This document shows, in pieces, positions 9,917 through 46,680 of a stretch of DNA of 64,000 bases. The DNA lies in NCBI GenBank assembly GCA_030063045.1, contig JAQSEB010000016.1:1364001-1428000 (forward strand). The letters are read 5' to 3'. How positions within the stretch are numbered: the stretch's first letter is position 1; every line of letters starts with the position of its first letter. The translations under genes and the position numbers were made by a program. The notes under the pieces were generated by a model. It searched no databases. It saw only the letters and a list, made by a program, of their open reading frames with translations, and was not told where the DNA came from. The DNA comes from Pratylenchus scribneri. Lineage: Eukaryota > Nematoda > Chromadorea > Rhabditida > Pratylenchidae.

Positions 9917-10718
9917 TGTCCACGACACGCCTTGACCGGACGGATGGACGCACCCCAAAATGACGATTGCCCACAGCAAAGGGCAATTAGTAATCCAGAA
10001 TCCTCCCAATGAAAAGGGCCTAGACTCCAAATTACTCAAAAATCCGAGTAGAAAATTGAAGACACAAAATTGAATTAAATAACTTTTATTGGGGTAAATT
10101 CAGTTGAAAACGCAGTAATGAGGAGAGGGAGAGAGATATTATAGGCCGGGGAAGGGCTTTTTATATGTCCAAAAAATAGGCGGGCAGATTCTTATCGGGC
10201 ACAAAAAAATGGGCCATGAAGCGGGGCAGCCAACAATGCGAAGGGGCCAACATTGAAGAACGAAGGGCAGCCAAACAATGCAAGGGAGGCCAAATAGAGG
10301 AGGACCATGCCAAGCAATGCAATGGGGCCAAATTGAAGAGGACCATGCCGGGCAAAGGGAGGGGACCGAGCCAAGCCAATTCAAACGGTTGTGGACGGGG
10401 CAATCGGACGAGAATCGGGCCACAACGAACGGGCGATGCAATCTGATTTGGGAGGAAAAAGGGGACCCACCCAGATTTAGATTAATTGGCCCATTTTCCC
10501 TCGATAAGAATAGAAAGAGTTAATTTATTTTGGCCCGAATTTTCCCCCCAAAACTAAATAATATGCCCTTTGTTTATTAATCCAAAAAATATGAAAGGGA
10601 TGGGGGATTAAGATGAATTTTGCCTTGGAGTTGATTAACTGAAATGGGAAAATATTGGCAATTTTAAATATTAAATCCAAAATAAATATTAAATCCAAAA
10701 ACTGTCGAAGACAGGTTT

Positions 10719-21850: not shown

Positions 21851-32187
<10,337 letters not shown>

Positions 32188-32648
32188 ATGAATTTTGAGG
32201 GCCAAACGAATAATACACGCATTAACAATTTTAATTTCACATTTATTTTCATTTTGTTTTATTTTATTATTTTTTTCTGTTGCACACCGGATAAATCAAT
32301 GTTGTCCAATTTATATATAAAGTGGATAATAGCCTCCATAAAAAACGCAGGAAAATTGATTATTATGCAAAAATAAGTGGAAATGAAAATATTTTCGGAT
32401 ATACTATATAAGATCACCCGTAAAAAATTGCGAGTTAAACCGTCTAAATTAATTTTTTATGACTTCTAATGAACGAAGTGTGCATTAGCATTTTGTGTAA
32501 ATGTGTAAAATTCAAGAATAAAAAATTTTGAGTGGCGAAAAAGAAAAAAGGATACGAATTTTTCCGGTGAGCATTTTTAGAATGGATTCATAGCATAAGA
32601 GGGTGAAAAATATGTAAAAACCCTAGATTTAATACACAATGCGCAGAA
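32188..32648. other. 3' UTR and intergenic DNA after the TTLL gene
   Basis: AT-rich, with an AATAAA at 32517 about 330 bp past the stop. Nothing else is recognised. Confidence 0.5.
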
Positions 32649-32669
32649 TTGTCGTCATGTGTTTCAGAA

Positions 32670-33010
32670 ATGTCGCCACCGAAGCAGAAATGTCGTTACC
32701 GAAGCAGAAATGTCGTTACCGAAGCAGAAATGTCGTTACCTAAGCAGAAATGTCGCTACCGAAGCAGAAATGTCGCCACCGAAGCAGAAATGTCGTTACC
32801 GAAGCAGAAATGTCGTTACCGAAGCAGAAATGTCGCCACCGAAGCAGAAATGTCGTTACCGAAGCAGAAATGTCGTTACCGAAGCAGAAATGTCGCCACC
32901 GAAGCAGAAATGTCGTTACCGAAGCAGAAATGTCGCCACCGAAGCAGAAATGTCGTTACCGAAGCAGAAATGTCGCCACCGAAGCAGAAATGTCGTTACC
33001 GAAGCAGATG
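32670..33010 (+). repeat. 20-bp minisatellite, about 17 copies
   Basis: Unit GAAGCAGAAATGTCGTTACC alternating with GAAGCAGAAATGTCGCCACC. The two variants (TCGTTACC, TCGCCACC) recur in a semi-regular order. Open frames across it come from the absence of stops in the unit and are not genes. Confidence 0.95.
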
Positions 33011-33015
33011 TGTCG

Positions 33016-33219
33016 CCTTGCATAGGGGGGCGCCACAGAAGTAAAAAGCCAATACATATATTGCATAGGGGGGCGCCACAGAAGTAAAAAGCCAATACAT
33101 ATATTGCATAGGGGGGCGCCACAGAAGTAAAAAGCCAATACATATATTGCATAGGGGGGCGCCACAGAAGTAAAAAGCCAATACATATATTGCATAGGGG
33201 GGCGCCACAGAAGTAAAAA
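33016..33219 (+). repeat. 43-bp satellite, about 4.7 copies, left of the foreign insert
   Basis: The monomer starts TTGCATAGGGGGGCGCC and ends GCCAATACATATA. It abuts the 20-bp minisatellite on its left. The last monomer breaks off after AAGTAAAAA and the array resumes at 33905. Confidence 0.92.
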
Positions 33220-33516
33220 AATCATTTTTTTTTAGATAAAAATAGTGAAATTAGTGGTATAAAAGATAACTTAAGAATAAAAGAGGAATATACTATATTT
33301 AGTAAAGAAATAGAAGAAAACTTATCTAATAAGTTAAACACATGTTTAAATAATTTAAAAGAAAAATTTAAATTATCACAAAAGCAAGATTCAATTCATA
33401 ATGATTTATGAGATACTATAATAATAAAGACTAAACTTCGTGATAATAATGATAAAACCATTAGTAAGTGAAGTATAACTAGTTTTAATAAAAAAGATAT
33501 CTATATATTAATATAG
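33217..33516 (+). pseudogene. Mollicute-code ORF A, 5'-truncated
   Basis: The frame is open from the satellite junction to a TAG at 33514. It contains two in-frame TGAs, read as Trp in NDLWDT and SKWSIT. The product of about 99 residues is Lys/Asn/Ile/Glu-rich with a helical, coiled-coil-like middle (FSKEIEENLSNKLNTCLNN). No start remains at the left, so it is the 3' end of a longer gene. No family recognised. Under the standard code it would be broken, hence non-functional in the nucleus. Confidence 0.6.
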
Positions 33517-33548
33517 TTTTGTTCATAGCTAAAATATAAAAAAAATTA

Positions 33549-33692
33549 ATGAAAAAAGAAGACTATTTAAAAATAATAGGTACAATTACTGAAGAAGAAA
33601 TTAAAGAATATGAACAAAAAGGAAAAAGAGGATTTTTTTTTTCTTGATTTTCTTCAGTAGATAATAAAACAATATTTTTCATAATAAATTAA
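33549..33692 (+). pseudogene. Mollicute-code small ORF B, complete
   Basis: ATG to TAA, 47 residues, 32 bp after ORF A on the same strand, with one TGA read as Trp in FFSWFSS. The first half is charged (MKKEDYLKI, TEEEIKEYEQKGKRG) and the tail hydrophobic (TIFFIIN). Spacing suggests an operon with ORF A. No family recognised and no clear Shine-Dalgarno motif. Confidence 0.55.
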
Positions 33693-33738
33693 ATAACGCG
33701 AAAGTATTTTACACAAAAAAAAGATAAAACCTTTTTTT

Positions 33739-33903
33739 TTATACTTTCAAAATAGCTGATAATAGTTTATTAAAAAAACTTTTTTCAATTATTTCTGATT
33801 CTTTTTCTATAGTTATTTGTTTTGGTTCTTCAATTTCTATCTTATTAAGTATCCAATTAACAATTTCTTTTGTTTGTCCTAAATATGCATTTATATTTTC
33901 TTT
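33739..33903 (-). pseudogene. Mollicute-like ORF C, 5'-truncated, convergent
   Basis: Minus-strand frame ending TAA at 33739 and running without stops to the satellite junction (54 residues). It includes NAYLGQTKEIVNWILNKIE and ends FFNKLLSAILKV. Trp here is TGG. It is convergent with ORFs A and B, with a T-rich gap between them. No family recognised; codon use (AAA, GAA, ATA, TTA) matches its neighbours and differs from the host genes. Confidence 0.5.
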
Positions 33904-33904
33904 T

Positions 33905-34622
33905 TACATATATTGCATAGTGGGCCATAAATAAGTAAAAAGCCAATATATCTTTTACACAAACATTTTTTAAGAATTCAAATAATATATTTCCCTCATT
34001 TTAATACATTATAATATTTTGGGTATGAATTATATATTTATAATTAAAACGATTAAAAAATTTTTTGCTCAAGTTCAGCGCATTTAAAATTGCACATTCA
34101 TTCCTCATTTTTATTTCATTCTACTCATTTCGTTTGAATTCTCATTTCTCTCGTCCCTGAAGGGTGTGCCATCGAACAACCTGTAATTTGGCATATATTT
34201 TCCTTTAAAAAAATTGGGATTTAAAGGATATAGCTAGTTATTTTTTACTATATTTATAGCTAACTCAATTAAGAAATTATTTATATGAGAAAGATATATA
34301 TCCCCTAAAAAGACCTAATAGTGTGCTATAGAATTTGGCCTTTTTAAATTTTAACAAGTCAAAATTACATGTCGTTTTCTTTTAATTTAACCTAATTTTT
34401 GAAAATACAGCTCAAAAGTTTGAAAATTTTAAAAATCGAAATTTTGCGGATTCTTTTAGATTTTCAAAGGTTTTTTGTCTCATCAATTCTTTTTACTCGG
34501 TTAAGCATTAAACTATGGTCAAAAAGAACGGTTAAATAATTTCTAAAAATGGAGAAAATCTTTAAGGATCTTCCTAAAAATTTCATAGATAGATTAAAAC
34601 CCAAAAAATTGATAAATATACT
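33905..34622. other. Satellite remnant and AT-rich intergenic DNA
   Basis: 33905-33950 is the right part of the broken satellite monomer plus one diverged unit (TACATATATTGCATAGTGGG, GTAAAAAGCCAATA). The rest to the synaptotagmin stop is AT-rich, with a short GC-richer patch at 34150-34190 (CTCGTCCCTGAAGGGTGTGCC). No gene is supported. Confidence 0.5.
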
Positions 34623-37600
34623 TTAAAATTTTAATAGAATTAGAAAAGAACTCGCCGGTCTCCGTGTCAACATCATTTCGCCCCATTGCTCTTGGGCGGC
34701 CAACCCAACTTGGGAATGTTGTAAATGGACGGAGGAAAGAATAACCTAGAAAAATATAAATATAAATTAATAAAAATTTAATAAAGTAAAATTTTTAAAA
34801 ATAATTTACAAAAATTCGAAAAAAAATTGGAAATTAAAACCGTATCTTTTTTTTAATAATAATTATAATCCTATTTTTTAAAATTAATTTAAAATTAATT
34901 AAATTTTAGAATTATTTTTAAAAAAATTCAGTACCTCGCCAATGAAATCATTTTTGCTCATTTTATCATAGTCCCAAACGGTAATGGCCAAATGGACGCG
35001 CTAAAATTTAAAAATATATAATATTTTAAATAATTCAATTCAATTTTTTTACATCCATTTTATCGGCAGCAATTTTGAATTGGAAACTTTCGTTGTAGCT
35101 AAAAAATGATGAAAATTTTTATTAATATCTTTTCTTTTATTCAATGTATTTTTGAGTACTTATATATTTTCCATGAGCAGAGTTTTTTATGACAGCTATA
35201 GAAAGGTAACGGTAACCTCCCATCTTCAAAACGAAGAAGTATCTTTAAATGTACCGAAAGGAGTATTAGCTAATCATAACTATCGTTATCGAGGATTAGG
35301 ACATGATCTTGGCGAAAACAAGCGAGGCGATATCTTAGTTCTCTAAAAGTAATAGTTTCCGGCTACTGCTGTTTGATCTTTATAAAATGACGCTCTTCCC
35401 CAATCAGAAGATGTTTGAAGATCTAACAATAATAAACTTTTAAGAGGATAAAAAAAGAGCTAAGAAAGAAAATATTATTTTAGAATGTTCTCTAAATGAA
35501 GATGGTTTTTTTAACAAACATTATCCTGTCTTGGAACTAGTTGGAAAGTTTTATAGTGACGCTAATGAGTATGTTTTGAATGATCTAGAAAGACGCGGTC
35601 TTTTGGTTCAAAAAGGAATGGATATCCGATGTGGGGTTAAGTCTCTTTAGGGAATAGTTTATCATCTTACGTATCCGTAACCTTAATGCTTATCACCCAT
35701 AAGGGGAATTTTACTCTGCCAAACAGGAATAATACGTAAGTACCTTTTTTGGCCATACAACTTTGTCACTAATTATCGCTATAAAAATTCGATGATAGCG
35801 CCTTTCACCAAAAAGGTAGGAAAAGACATTTTATCCAAACCAATTTTCGACTATTTGCAGGGTAAAACCAAAAAACGAATGATATTTTCGGATTCAGCAA
35901 GTTGGAAAACCCTTAAAACCAGTTTCAAAACATGCATTTGTAAATGTCAAACTGTGCCAAAAACATTGTTTGATTGAAATGTTTTAAACGACTTTTTCGG
36001 TGAAACGCGCAAACACATAAAAATTCTATCTTTCATAATTTTAAGCCATTAAATATAGTCTATGTAATTGATTTTAATCGATATTATTTAATTTAAATTA
36101 ATCCTCACTTAAATAAGTAAAGATATTGATGTTTTGGTCTAGGGATCTCCTAGCCTCAACATTTGTCTGACCGACACTTGGCGTGTTGTCAGTGAGATTA
36201 TGCATGTTTCGGTCAGGTGGAAGCCTAACTCCAACATTTGTTCCCATCGCCGGCTTCCTTCCCAGCTCTGGATTCGAGGGATATTTTGGGCTTTGACTCG
36301 GCATCATGCAGATCCGACCCAAATCATAATCTCCGTCCATCGATTGATTCATGGTCCCATACCCATGAGCCAACCCTCCGTCCATGCGATGGATCGATTT
36401 GCTACCACTTAAGCCCCCGTGCTCACAGTGTGCGCGTGCTTGGACCAGAGGTTCCGAACCTTTCGGATCGATGCGATCGTAACGCCCCCGGGGAGCAGGA
36501 TTGTTCGGTAACACGCCGATTTGAGCTTGATCTTCCGATTGGACTGTCGTGTTCTCTGCCGCTCGCACTGGAGGGCTCCGAATAATCTTGGATTCGAATG
36601 TCCAACTTCCCGACAAATCCCTCCGCTCCCAGGCGGATCTCAGGATGTCATAAACCGATCGCTCTGGTGGCGATTCTCCCTCAACCGGTTTCGAGGTCGG
36701 CGAGGTCGTGATCGAGTGATAATTGCGAATCAATTCATCTTTCTCGTTTTTTAATGCTTTTAGGCCAGCAATGAGGCCATCCAACAGGCTGTCATCGCCG
36801 GGCGAAAAGCGCGTTTTCCTCTTACATTCACGCATCAGCGCGAACTTCTTTTCCTCGAATTCCTCGAGTTTCAAGTCTAACCAACTTGCGGGTTTAAGGC
36901 TTCTCCAGCCATCTTTTCCTTGATCCATCCTGGATGGAAACGGTGCTCGGCCGCTGTCAGGTGCGCCCCGAGATGACACCTCACTATCACGTGCGTGACA
37001 CACGAGCGGTTTAGTGTGGCCGCCACACCTTTCTTTATTTCCATTGGTCTTCCCAAATCCGGAAACCAAATTCCTTGTTGAGCTCTCACGACTAGCAGCC
37101 ACCGGAACAGGTCTCAGGTGATCTCGCATCGGGACTACTTTGGTCCTGCTCACACCATCTCGATCCAACATCGGCCAAGACTGAGTCGGTCTTGAGGTCG
37201 CCATTGATTTGATAGCCGAATTATTCATTTTATTCGCTATGCAACAGTCCCAGACTGAGGATAGGAATGAGGAACAGGCCTGGCTATTTATAGGCCCGCT
37301 GACTTGTTGACTGGCGATTTGATTTCCCAGCAAGTCAGACCTCTTTCCCCGCGTTGAGAGATCGCGTCGGGGATTAACTTTGAGGTGAATTGGAAGGCCG
37401 TCAACCAATTCATCCTTTTGTGCTGCGCTCTCTCGCAGTTCCTCTTTTCTCTTGTCAGCCATCAAAGCCTGACTTCTTCCTTCTTCACTCTGACAAGTGA
37501 ATTGGGAATTGAATGACTGCGGGCAGTGCAGACATTTGGGAATGTTTTGGAAAAGAACGTAAAGTGTTAAGATGTTTTGCTGCCCACAAAACATCTACAC

Positions 37601-45487: not shown

Positions 45488-46680
45488 AAAATATCTTGGA
45501 TCAGAAAATTTTGCTTTGGTAACCAAAATTGCAGAATTGACCTGCATAAAATATCTTGGATCAGAAAATTTTGCTTTGGTAACCAAAATTGCAGAATTGA
45601 CCTGCATAAAATATCTTGGATCAGAAAATTTTGCTTTGGTAACCAAAATTGCAGAATTGACCTGCATAAAATATCTTGGTTCTGAAAATTTTGCTTAGTG
45701 AACCAAAATTGCAGAATTGACCTGCATAAAATATCTTGGTTCTGAAAATTTTGCTTAGTGAACCAAAATTGCAGAATTGACCTGCATAAAATATCTTGGT
45801 TCTGAAAATTTTGCTTAGTGAACCAAAATTGCAGAATTGACCTGCATAAAATATCTTGGTTCTGAAAATTTTGCTTAGTGAACCAAAATTGCAGAATTGA
45901 CCTGCATAAAATATCTTGGTTCTGAAAATTTTGCTTAGTGAACCAAAATTGCAGAATTGACCTGCATAAAATATCTTGGATCAGAAAATTTTGCTTTGGT
46001 AACCAAAATTGCAGAATTGACCTGCATAAAATATCTTGGATCAGAAAATTTTGCTTTGGTAACCAAAATTGCAGAATTGACCTGCATAAAATATCTTGGA
46101 TCAGAAAATTTTGCTTAGTGAACCAAAATTGCAGAATTGACCTGCATAAAATATCTTGGATCAGAAAATTTTGCTTTGGTAACCAAAATTGCAGAATTGA
46201 CCTGCATAAAATATCTTGGTTCTGAAAATTTTGCTTAGTGAACCAAAATTGCAGAATTGACCTGCATAAAATATCTTGGTTCTGAAAATTTTGCTTAGTG
46301 AACCAAAATTGCAGAATTGACCTGCATAAAATATCTTGGTTCTGAAAATTTTGCTTAGTGAACCAAAATTGCAGAATTGACCTGCATAAAATATCTTGGT
46401 TCTGAAAATTTTGCTTTGGTAACCAAAATTGCAGAATTGACCTGCATAAAATATCTTGGATCAGAAAATTTTGCTTTGGTAACCAAAATTGCAGAATTGA
46501 CCTGCATAAAATATCTTGGTTCTGAAAATTTTGCTTAGTGAACCAAAATTGCAGAATTGACCTGCATAAAATATCTTGGTTCTGAAAATTTTGCTTAGTG
46601 AACCAAAATTGCAGAATTGACCTGCATAAAATATCTTGGTTCTAAAAATTTTGCTTATTGAACCAAAATTGCAGAATTGA
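45488..46680 (+). repeat. 60-bp satellite, about 20 copies, two interleaved variants
   Basis: The exact 60-bp period contains AAAATATCTTGG, GAAAATTTTGCTT and AACCAAAATTGCAGAATTGA. Variant A has GGATCAG and TTTGGTAACC; variant B has GGTTCTG and TTAGTGAACC. The order is AAABBBBBAAhABBBhABBB (h = hybrid), showing conversion or unequal exchange. Variant A is open for 20 codons per unit and B carries a stop, so the ORFs here reflect monomer order. Flanks share the motif ATGCTTTATTAATGGATTC. Confidence 0.95.

Follow-up and report, generated by a model that had tools for sequence, protein, structure and literature searches.

A probable mollicute-type chromosomal fragment within a satellite array of the nematode Pratylenchus scribneri

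A 685-base block of bacterial-type DNA interrupts a single 43-bp satellite monomer on contig C16 of the nematode Pratylenchus scribneri, and three homologous loci of the same assembly lack it. We consider it probable that the block is a chromosomal fragment of a mollicute-type bacterium, captured at a break in the satellite and now a genomic fossil. It lies within the window, that is, the whole stretch of 64,000 bases analysed here (C16:1364001-1428000), in an assembly totalling 227,248,964 bases in 276 contigs. Pieces of bacterial genes on two other contigs point to the genetic code of the donors.

Insertion site and homologous loci

The host satellite and its flank are continuous with the insert at both ends at the level of the assembly. 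At the left junction, four perfect 43-bp units are followed by a fifth that is cut after GTAAAAA at 33219. At the right junction, the satellite is picked up again at 33905 with TACATATATTGCATA, and the monomer continuation from this position reads TACATATA. Since TACATATATTGCATA resumes at 33905, GCCAA is absent, give or take microhomology. The preliminary description had claimed that about 5 bp of a single 43-bp monomer were replaced and that the satellite resumes beyond, and the 33219/33905 junctions with the missing GCCAA bear this out. The G+C content of the insert is 18.5%, and those of the flanking kilobases are 37.8% (32001-33000) and 25.5% (34001-35000); the insert value, as well as the shuffle and host-window statistics below, was calculated on 33220-33905 (686 bases, the insert plus one). 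Neither a target duplication nor a recognised mobility gene is seen at the insert, and both of its outer frames are severed. Elsewhere, the window contains a perfect 798-bp duplication (43-840 and 9917-10714, spaced by 9.9 kb), a 26-bp array of 15 units at 99% (28036-28432) and a 60-bp array of 20 units at 97% (45488-46680).

A search of the nematode's own genome with positions 31400-36200 returned 56 matches, including three homologous loci on contigs C9, C203 and C22. On C9, the match to the left flank reaches 752171 and that to the right flank begins at 752136, with no gap between them. Since the two flank matches meet, C9 is a clean empty site. On C203 and C22, the flank matches are separated by 98 and 143 bases, respectively. 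The intervening stretches are similar to one another (84% over 77 columns plus 28 identical bases) and have in common with the insert only chance-size matches of at most 27 bases, so that they are a separate difference and not remnants of the insert. With three homologous loci free of it, the block is a derived insertion present in one of four locus copies. The copy on C203 is rearranged, since the first 1014 bases of the query match there at a distance of 25 kb from the remaining matches. The insert-bearing copy has the longest 43-bp array; in the other copies, this array is limited to one or two units. As a separate observation, the short stretch common to C203 (L067, 1401-1500) and C22 (L068, 1357-1501) is found neither on C9 nor on C16. 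Identity of the copies to the window is 74-89%, depending on the segment, and four copies at this distance suggest homologous genomes that have diverged more than they suggest a simple diploid.

Table 1. Features of the insertion site, of the insert and of the related bacterial tract (positions are those of the window unless C131 is named)
Feature	Location	Strand	Basis or remark
20-bp tandem array, host	32665..33008		present at the homologous loci too, beside the site
43-bp satellite array, 4.7 identical units, interrupted after GTAAAAA	33018..33219		junction reading
Bacterial-type DNA insert, 685 bases, 18.5% GC, in place of GCCAA of one monomer	33220..33904		junctions and homologous loci
Remainder of interrupted monomer and one degenerate unit	33905..33952		degenerate unit matches the empty site on C9 (46 bp, 98%)
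Frame A	33229..33516	+	95 codons under code 4, TGA at residues 61 and 81; 5' end lost at left junction
Frame B, ATG to stop	33549..33692	+	47 codons under code 4, one TGA (residue 33, counted by hand)
Stretch of frame B with relative on C131	33568..33628	+	89% to C131:638479-638539, adjoining a ClpB piece
Terminator-like hairpin between convergent frames B and C	33700..33748		-9.6 kcal/mol; equalled by 2 of 200 shuffles
Frame C	33739..33903	-	54 codons to stop, no TGA; 5' end lost at right junction
GrpE-like stretch, leading into DnaK	C131 tract		Pfam E 0.0015, below its cut-off
DnaK positions 207-251	C131 tract		4.8e-9
DJ-1/PfpI, both halves	C131 tract		5.6e-18 and 1.6e-15
ClpB, in pieces	C131 tract		AAA_2 1.5e-43; TIGR03346 3.2e-61 and 2.4e-37

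Frames and coding signal of the insert

The insert holds three AT-rich frames on two strands (Table 1). Mycoplasmas and spiroplasmas read TGA as tryptophan instead of stop. Three frames, two of them open only with TGA as tryptophan, had been described before, and translation with table 11 confirms that frames A (two TGAs) and B (one TGA) are interrupted at these codons. Frames B and C, with the hairpin between them, have the layout of two putative genes converging on a shared terminator. A single-sequence fold of frame A yields one long helix at low confidence (mean pLDDT 66). None of the three frames matches a family in Pfam, PHROGs or NCBIfam below E 0.03, and nothing convincing emerged from PHROGs. 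Searches of phages and plasmids with the insert DNA, of phages, plasmids and viral contigs with frame A, and of viral contigs with frame C returned no match. No tRNA or Rfam family was detected in the window, L003 or L004.

Frame length and codon phase differ in what they say about the insert. Among 2000 dinucleotide shuffles, 28 contain a code-4 frame as long as the longest one of the insert, and 3 reach the sum of its two longest frames. This sum is attained in 468 of 902 host windows of equal size (overlapping, and drawn from the window, L005, L006 and L007) and in 47 of 136 in the class below 22% GC. Because host windows often match it, frame length is weak evidence and not unusual for host DNA. 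Codon phase provides better evidence: over the three frames, 53, 42 and 16 of 196 codons carry G or C at positions 1, 2 and 3, respectively (Fisher p 1.1e-6), and none of the 902 host windows contains a frame of at least 90 codons with third-position GC as low, by a criterion chosen after the insert had been seen. The insert thus combines a very low G+C content with the lowest value at the third position, as looked for in a mollicute donor. The relative on C131 described below and the insert-free homologous loci are independent of these frame statistics.

Bacterial DNA on two further contigs

Other code-4 islands, whose existence in the assembly the preliminary description had left to be checked, were sought and recovered as pieces on contigs C131 and C159. 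In the 227-Mb genome, the insert itself has a single match elsewhere, 61 bp at 89% identity on C131, and this one match would constitute the link between the ClpB pieces and the window insert. The match is short, and its seven differences, distributed as 3, 2 and 2 over the codon positions and including one that creates a stop in C131, show no coding constraint. The surrounding bacterial tract spans approximately 7 kb (632.9-640.3 kb, the right limit being provisional), with code-4 frames on the other strand. It is frameshifted and has within it a palindromic element of about 930 bp (C131:636810-637744). This element has 153 matches in all; those listed place it at 39 other sites, with 35 copies of 87% identity spread over 29 contigs and four of 86-94% over three contigs. 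To the left of the tract lies a gene with NADAR and poly(A)-polymerase domains (its frame read under code 4), and a tandem array at 640.3-641.5 kb terminates the tract on the right. C131 thus carries old bacterial DNA. The window insert is likely younger than this tract, because TGA is the only stop within its frames. A homologous copy of the C131 tract without the bacterial DNA could not be distinguished, the left flank being repetitive.

Two features of the wider C131 neighbourhood are recorded separately. Either side of the tract (C131:581000-632000 and 645000-658000) is occupied by a tandem family of about 750 bp in many copies and by a satellite of great length with about 12% GC. Some NadD-like pieces (C131:642.2-643.8 kb) looked bacterial at first. 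Their order is, by eye, more like that of an intron-containing eukaryotic NMNAT gene, but two of them gave no match in the PDB, so that 640.3 kb is a provisional right limit of the bacterial tract.

A search of the genome with the ClpB family gave four matches, three on C131 and one on C159 (832516-832782). The C159 piece comprises about 290 bases, matches the ClpB AAA lid (5.5e-28) and is surrounded by DNA of 28-40% GC in 200-base steps. Over 91 aligned codons, the C131 and C159 pieces differ at 99 of 273 bases, with a dS of about 1.2 and a dN of 0.39. The pN/pS ratio of 0.51 was matched or undercut by no simulation in two null sets of 1000 each, one uniform and one AT-biased, and the pair thus bears the mark of purifying selection. 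The pieces therefore diverged while still selected. Both carry an in-frame TGA at the same codon. The simplest reading of a shared in-frame TGA in two diverged ClpB pieces is that UGA was a sense codon in the donors, presumably one specifying tryptophan. The comparison also supports at least two putative donors with UGA as tryptophan, whether strains or species. The evidence for this codon assignment comes from the C131 and C159 pieces and not from the insert itself.

The individual stop codons were compared with reference proteins. One of the five DnaK alignments listed, that with 8w1m_A, has a tryptophan opposite a TGA of the DnaK piece. DJ-1 contains two TGAs in its matched part, and the compared relatives have no tryptophan at those positions. 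In 10 of 12 reference alignments, the end of the first C131 ClpB piece extends into a TAA, in one of them also into a TAG. The wide ClpB envelope on C131 contains 4 TGA, 2 TAG and 6 TAA, in keeping with its frameshifts, and that on C159 contains 1 TGA and 1 TAA. A ClpB TGA within the reading SKWT was considered as a conserved tryptophan codon and discarded, as the alignments place it outside the matched ClpB frame. Relatives of the ClpB pieces elsewhere reach at most 51% identity and belong to bacteria of other groups, in searched sets that contained no mollicute. A ClpB scan of genome contigs from other organisms identified 11 loci, including one in a Clostridia genome and none labelled as a mollicute. 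In 398 genomes of the phylum of that Clostridia genome, 391 ClpB matches were obtained; among the matches listed, identity is at most 51% and internal stops are absent.

Origin of the insert and comparison with known systems

Four alternative explanations were weighed against the capture of mollicute-type DNA. The donor could have been an AT-rich bacterium with the standard code, the TGAs being stops that arose by decay after transfer. The C131 tract is indeed decayed, with frameshifts and a host element inside, TAA or TAG codons also stand at the ends of ClpB alignments, and ClpB from other genomes lacks internal stops among the matches listed. Single-base decay, however, predicts TGA in only 20-27% of new stops, whereas the homology-defined stretches hold seven TGAs (two each in ClpB of C131, DnaK and DJ-1 and one in ClpB of C159) against 0 to 2 TAA or TAG, depending on where the C131 ClpB alignment ends, a count favoured by the choice of the DnaK and DJ-1 stretches as open code-4 frames. 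The retention of TGA at one codon across a dS of about 1.2 is also hard to explain by decay, and we regard this origin as improbable. To a similar degree, we doubt that the insert is an artefact, whether a chimera from ultra-low-input library preparation or an assembly error in the satellite. The ultra-low-input HiFi workflow amplifies by PCR, and the insert is undecayed and located at a repeat, as an artefact might be, but chimeric molecules usually occur singly, and more than one read is needed to build a contig. The assembly was built from 5 ng of DNA with this workflow, according to the available text of its report (PMC10138993), which adds weight to the concern. On the other side, the related C131 tract is decayed and contains a dispersed element, unlike a library artefact, and C159 provides a third site.

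Ordinary AT-rich nematode DNA with frames open by chance would account for the frequency of equally long frames in host windows and for the lack of any known family among the insert frames. This reading is very unlikely in view of the GC bias at third codon positions, which is seen in three frames and on both strands, the absence of the block from the homologous loci and its relative within a ClpB-bearing tract. A nuclear copy of nematode mitochondrial DNA would equally fit the high A+T content and the frames with TGA as tryptophan, since these agree with the mitochondrial code as well. However, Lys, Glu and Asn abound in the frames, no mitochondrial Pfam family is found in frames A, B or C, and the related C131 tract encodes ClpB, DnaK and DJ-1, so that a mitochondrial source seems exceedingly remote.

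Capture of mollicute-type DNA remains the reading that we prefer, and the earlier interpretation is retained in part. Its proposal of bacterial-type DNA in a nematode contig stands, the block being absent from three homologous loci, as does a donor type reading TGA as sense, through the ClpB pair; its suggestion of a phage or plasmid origin drew no match in the phage, plasmid and viral sets searched, and Spiroplasma or Mycoplasma as the donor and a past or present endosymbiont are at most putative. UGA as tryptophan together with such a low G+C content presumably points to mollicutes. The donor class is therefore likely to be mollicute, an assignment made from these two properties, and the insert probably derives from the same donor type as the C131 and C159 pieces. 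We envisage that a random piece of the chromosome of a bacterium with UGA as tryptophan, most likely a mollicute, was captured at a double-strand break in a satellite monomer of the germline, entering one of four homologous locus copies. The junctions suggest that end joining would have sealed the break without target duplication and with the loss of five bases. The piece, severed through two genes and without a recognised mobility gene, would be expected to be inert, a genomic fossil. A heritable symbiosis may have provided the route into the germline, by which at least two further pieces would have come to reside on C131 and C159.

Because the ClpB parts appear to come from two donor strains, transfer would have happened more than once, which suggests that the ancestors of the nematode met such bacteria repeatedly. 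Two of the three pieces, in the window and on C131, lie at or near tandem arrays. Tentatively, and with slightly less than even confidence, we propose that these ancestors may have been hosts to two or more lineages of heritable mollicutes associated with the germline, which would be the first such symbionts known for a nematode. Breaks in satellite arrays would then have captured mollicute DNA, the latest such event affecting one of the four copies described here. The present assembly shows no sign of a living symbiont, because rpoB, uvrA and polC lack a match near the family cut-off: RpoB gave 17 matches and UvrA three weak ones, none near the cut-off, and polC gave no match. The one RpoB match read in detail, on C10, was not taken for bacterial, as it is split by intron-like gaps and looks like a host polymerase. 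Five of 2564 small-subunit rRNA candidates were scored, each of about 1815 bases and 18S-like, in a search that a short bacterial piece could escape; these 18S-like genes occur once each on C201, C72, C10, C78 and C221. In the published assembly (276 contigs, 227.24 Mb), one 40-kb bacterial contig had been removed by the authors, according to the available text (PMC10138993).

The fragments, if their origin is as proposed, would be the first hint, within the literature searched, of mollicutes reaching the germline of a plant-parasitic nematode. They also suggest that code-4 islands in long host contigs can escape a contamination screen at the contig level. Among the best-ranked papers of our literature search, in whose coverage most subscription journals are not included, no published report of mollicute DNA in a nematode genome was found. 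The available part of an archive survey of 128 nematode species with 27 Spiroplasma reference genomes reports only Wolbachia and one instance of Cardinium (PMC10335654).

Nuclear Wolbachia transfers are known from nematodes such as Dictyocaulus viviparus, in which they amount to nearly 1 Mb (PMC4046930). The present case is similar in that DNA of a bacterial symbiont in a nematode assembly may trace a past symbiosis, but it differs in its donor, which seems to have used UGA as tryptophan and not to have been Wolbachia, and in its extent of three small pieces. In ants, 37 of 497 loci are described as transfers derived from Spiroplasma or Mycoplasma (PMC13320244). The putative donor type is shared and the recipient is again an animal, although here it is a plant-parasitic nematode that harbours broken fragments, in contrast to a conserved, expressed gene such as murQ in ants (PMC13320244). 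Root-knot nematodes likewise exemplify transfer into a plant-parasitic nematode, and their laterally acquired genes are discussed, in the text available, as adding to genome content and parasitic ability, whereas the fragments of P. scribneri look inert (PMC3511272). Bacterial DNA in nematode assemblies and mollicute loci in ants are thus already known; the novelty of the present case would be an unexpected donor type in a nematode.
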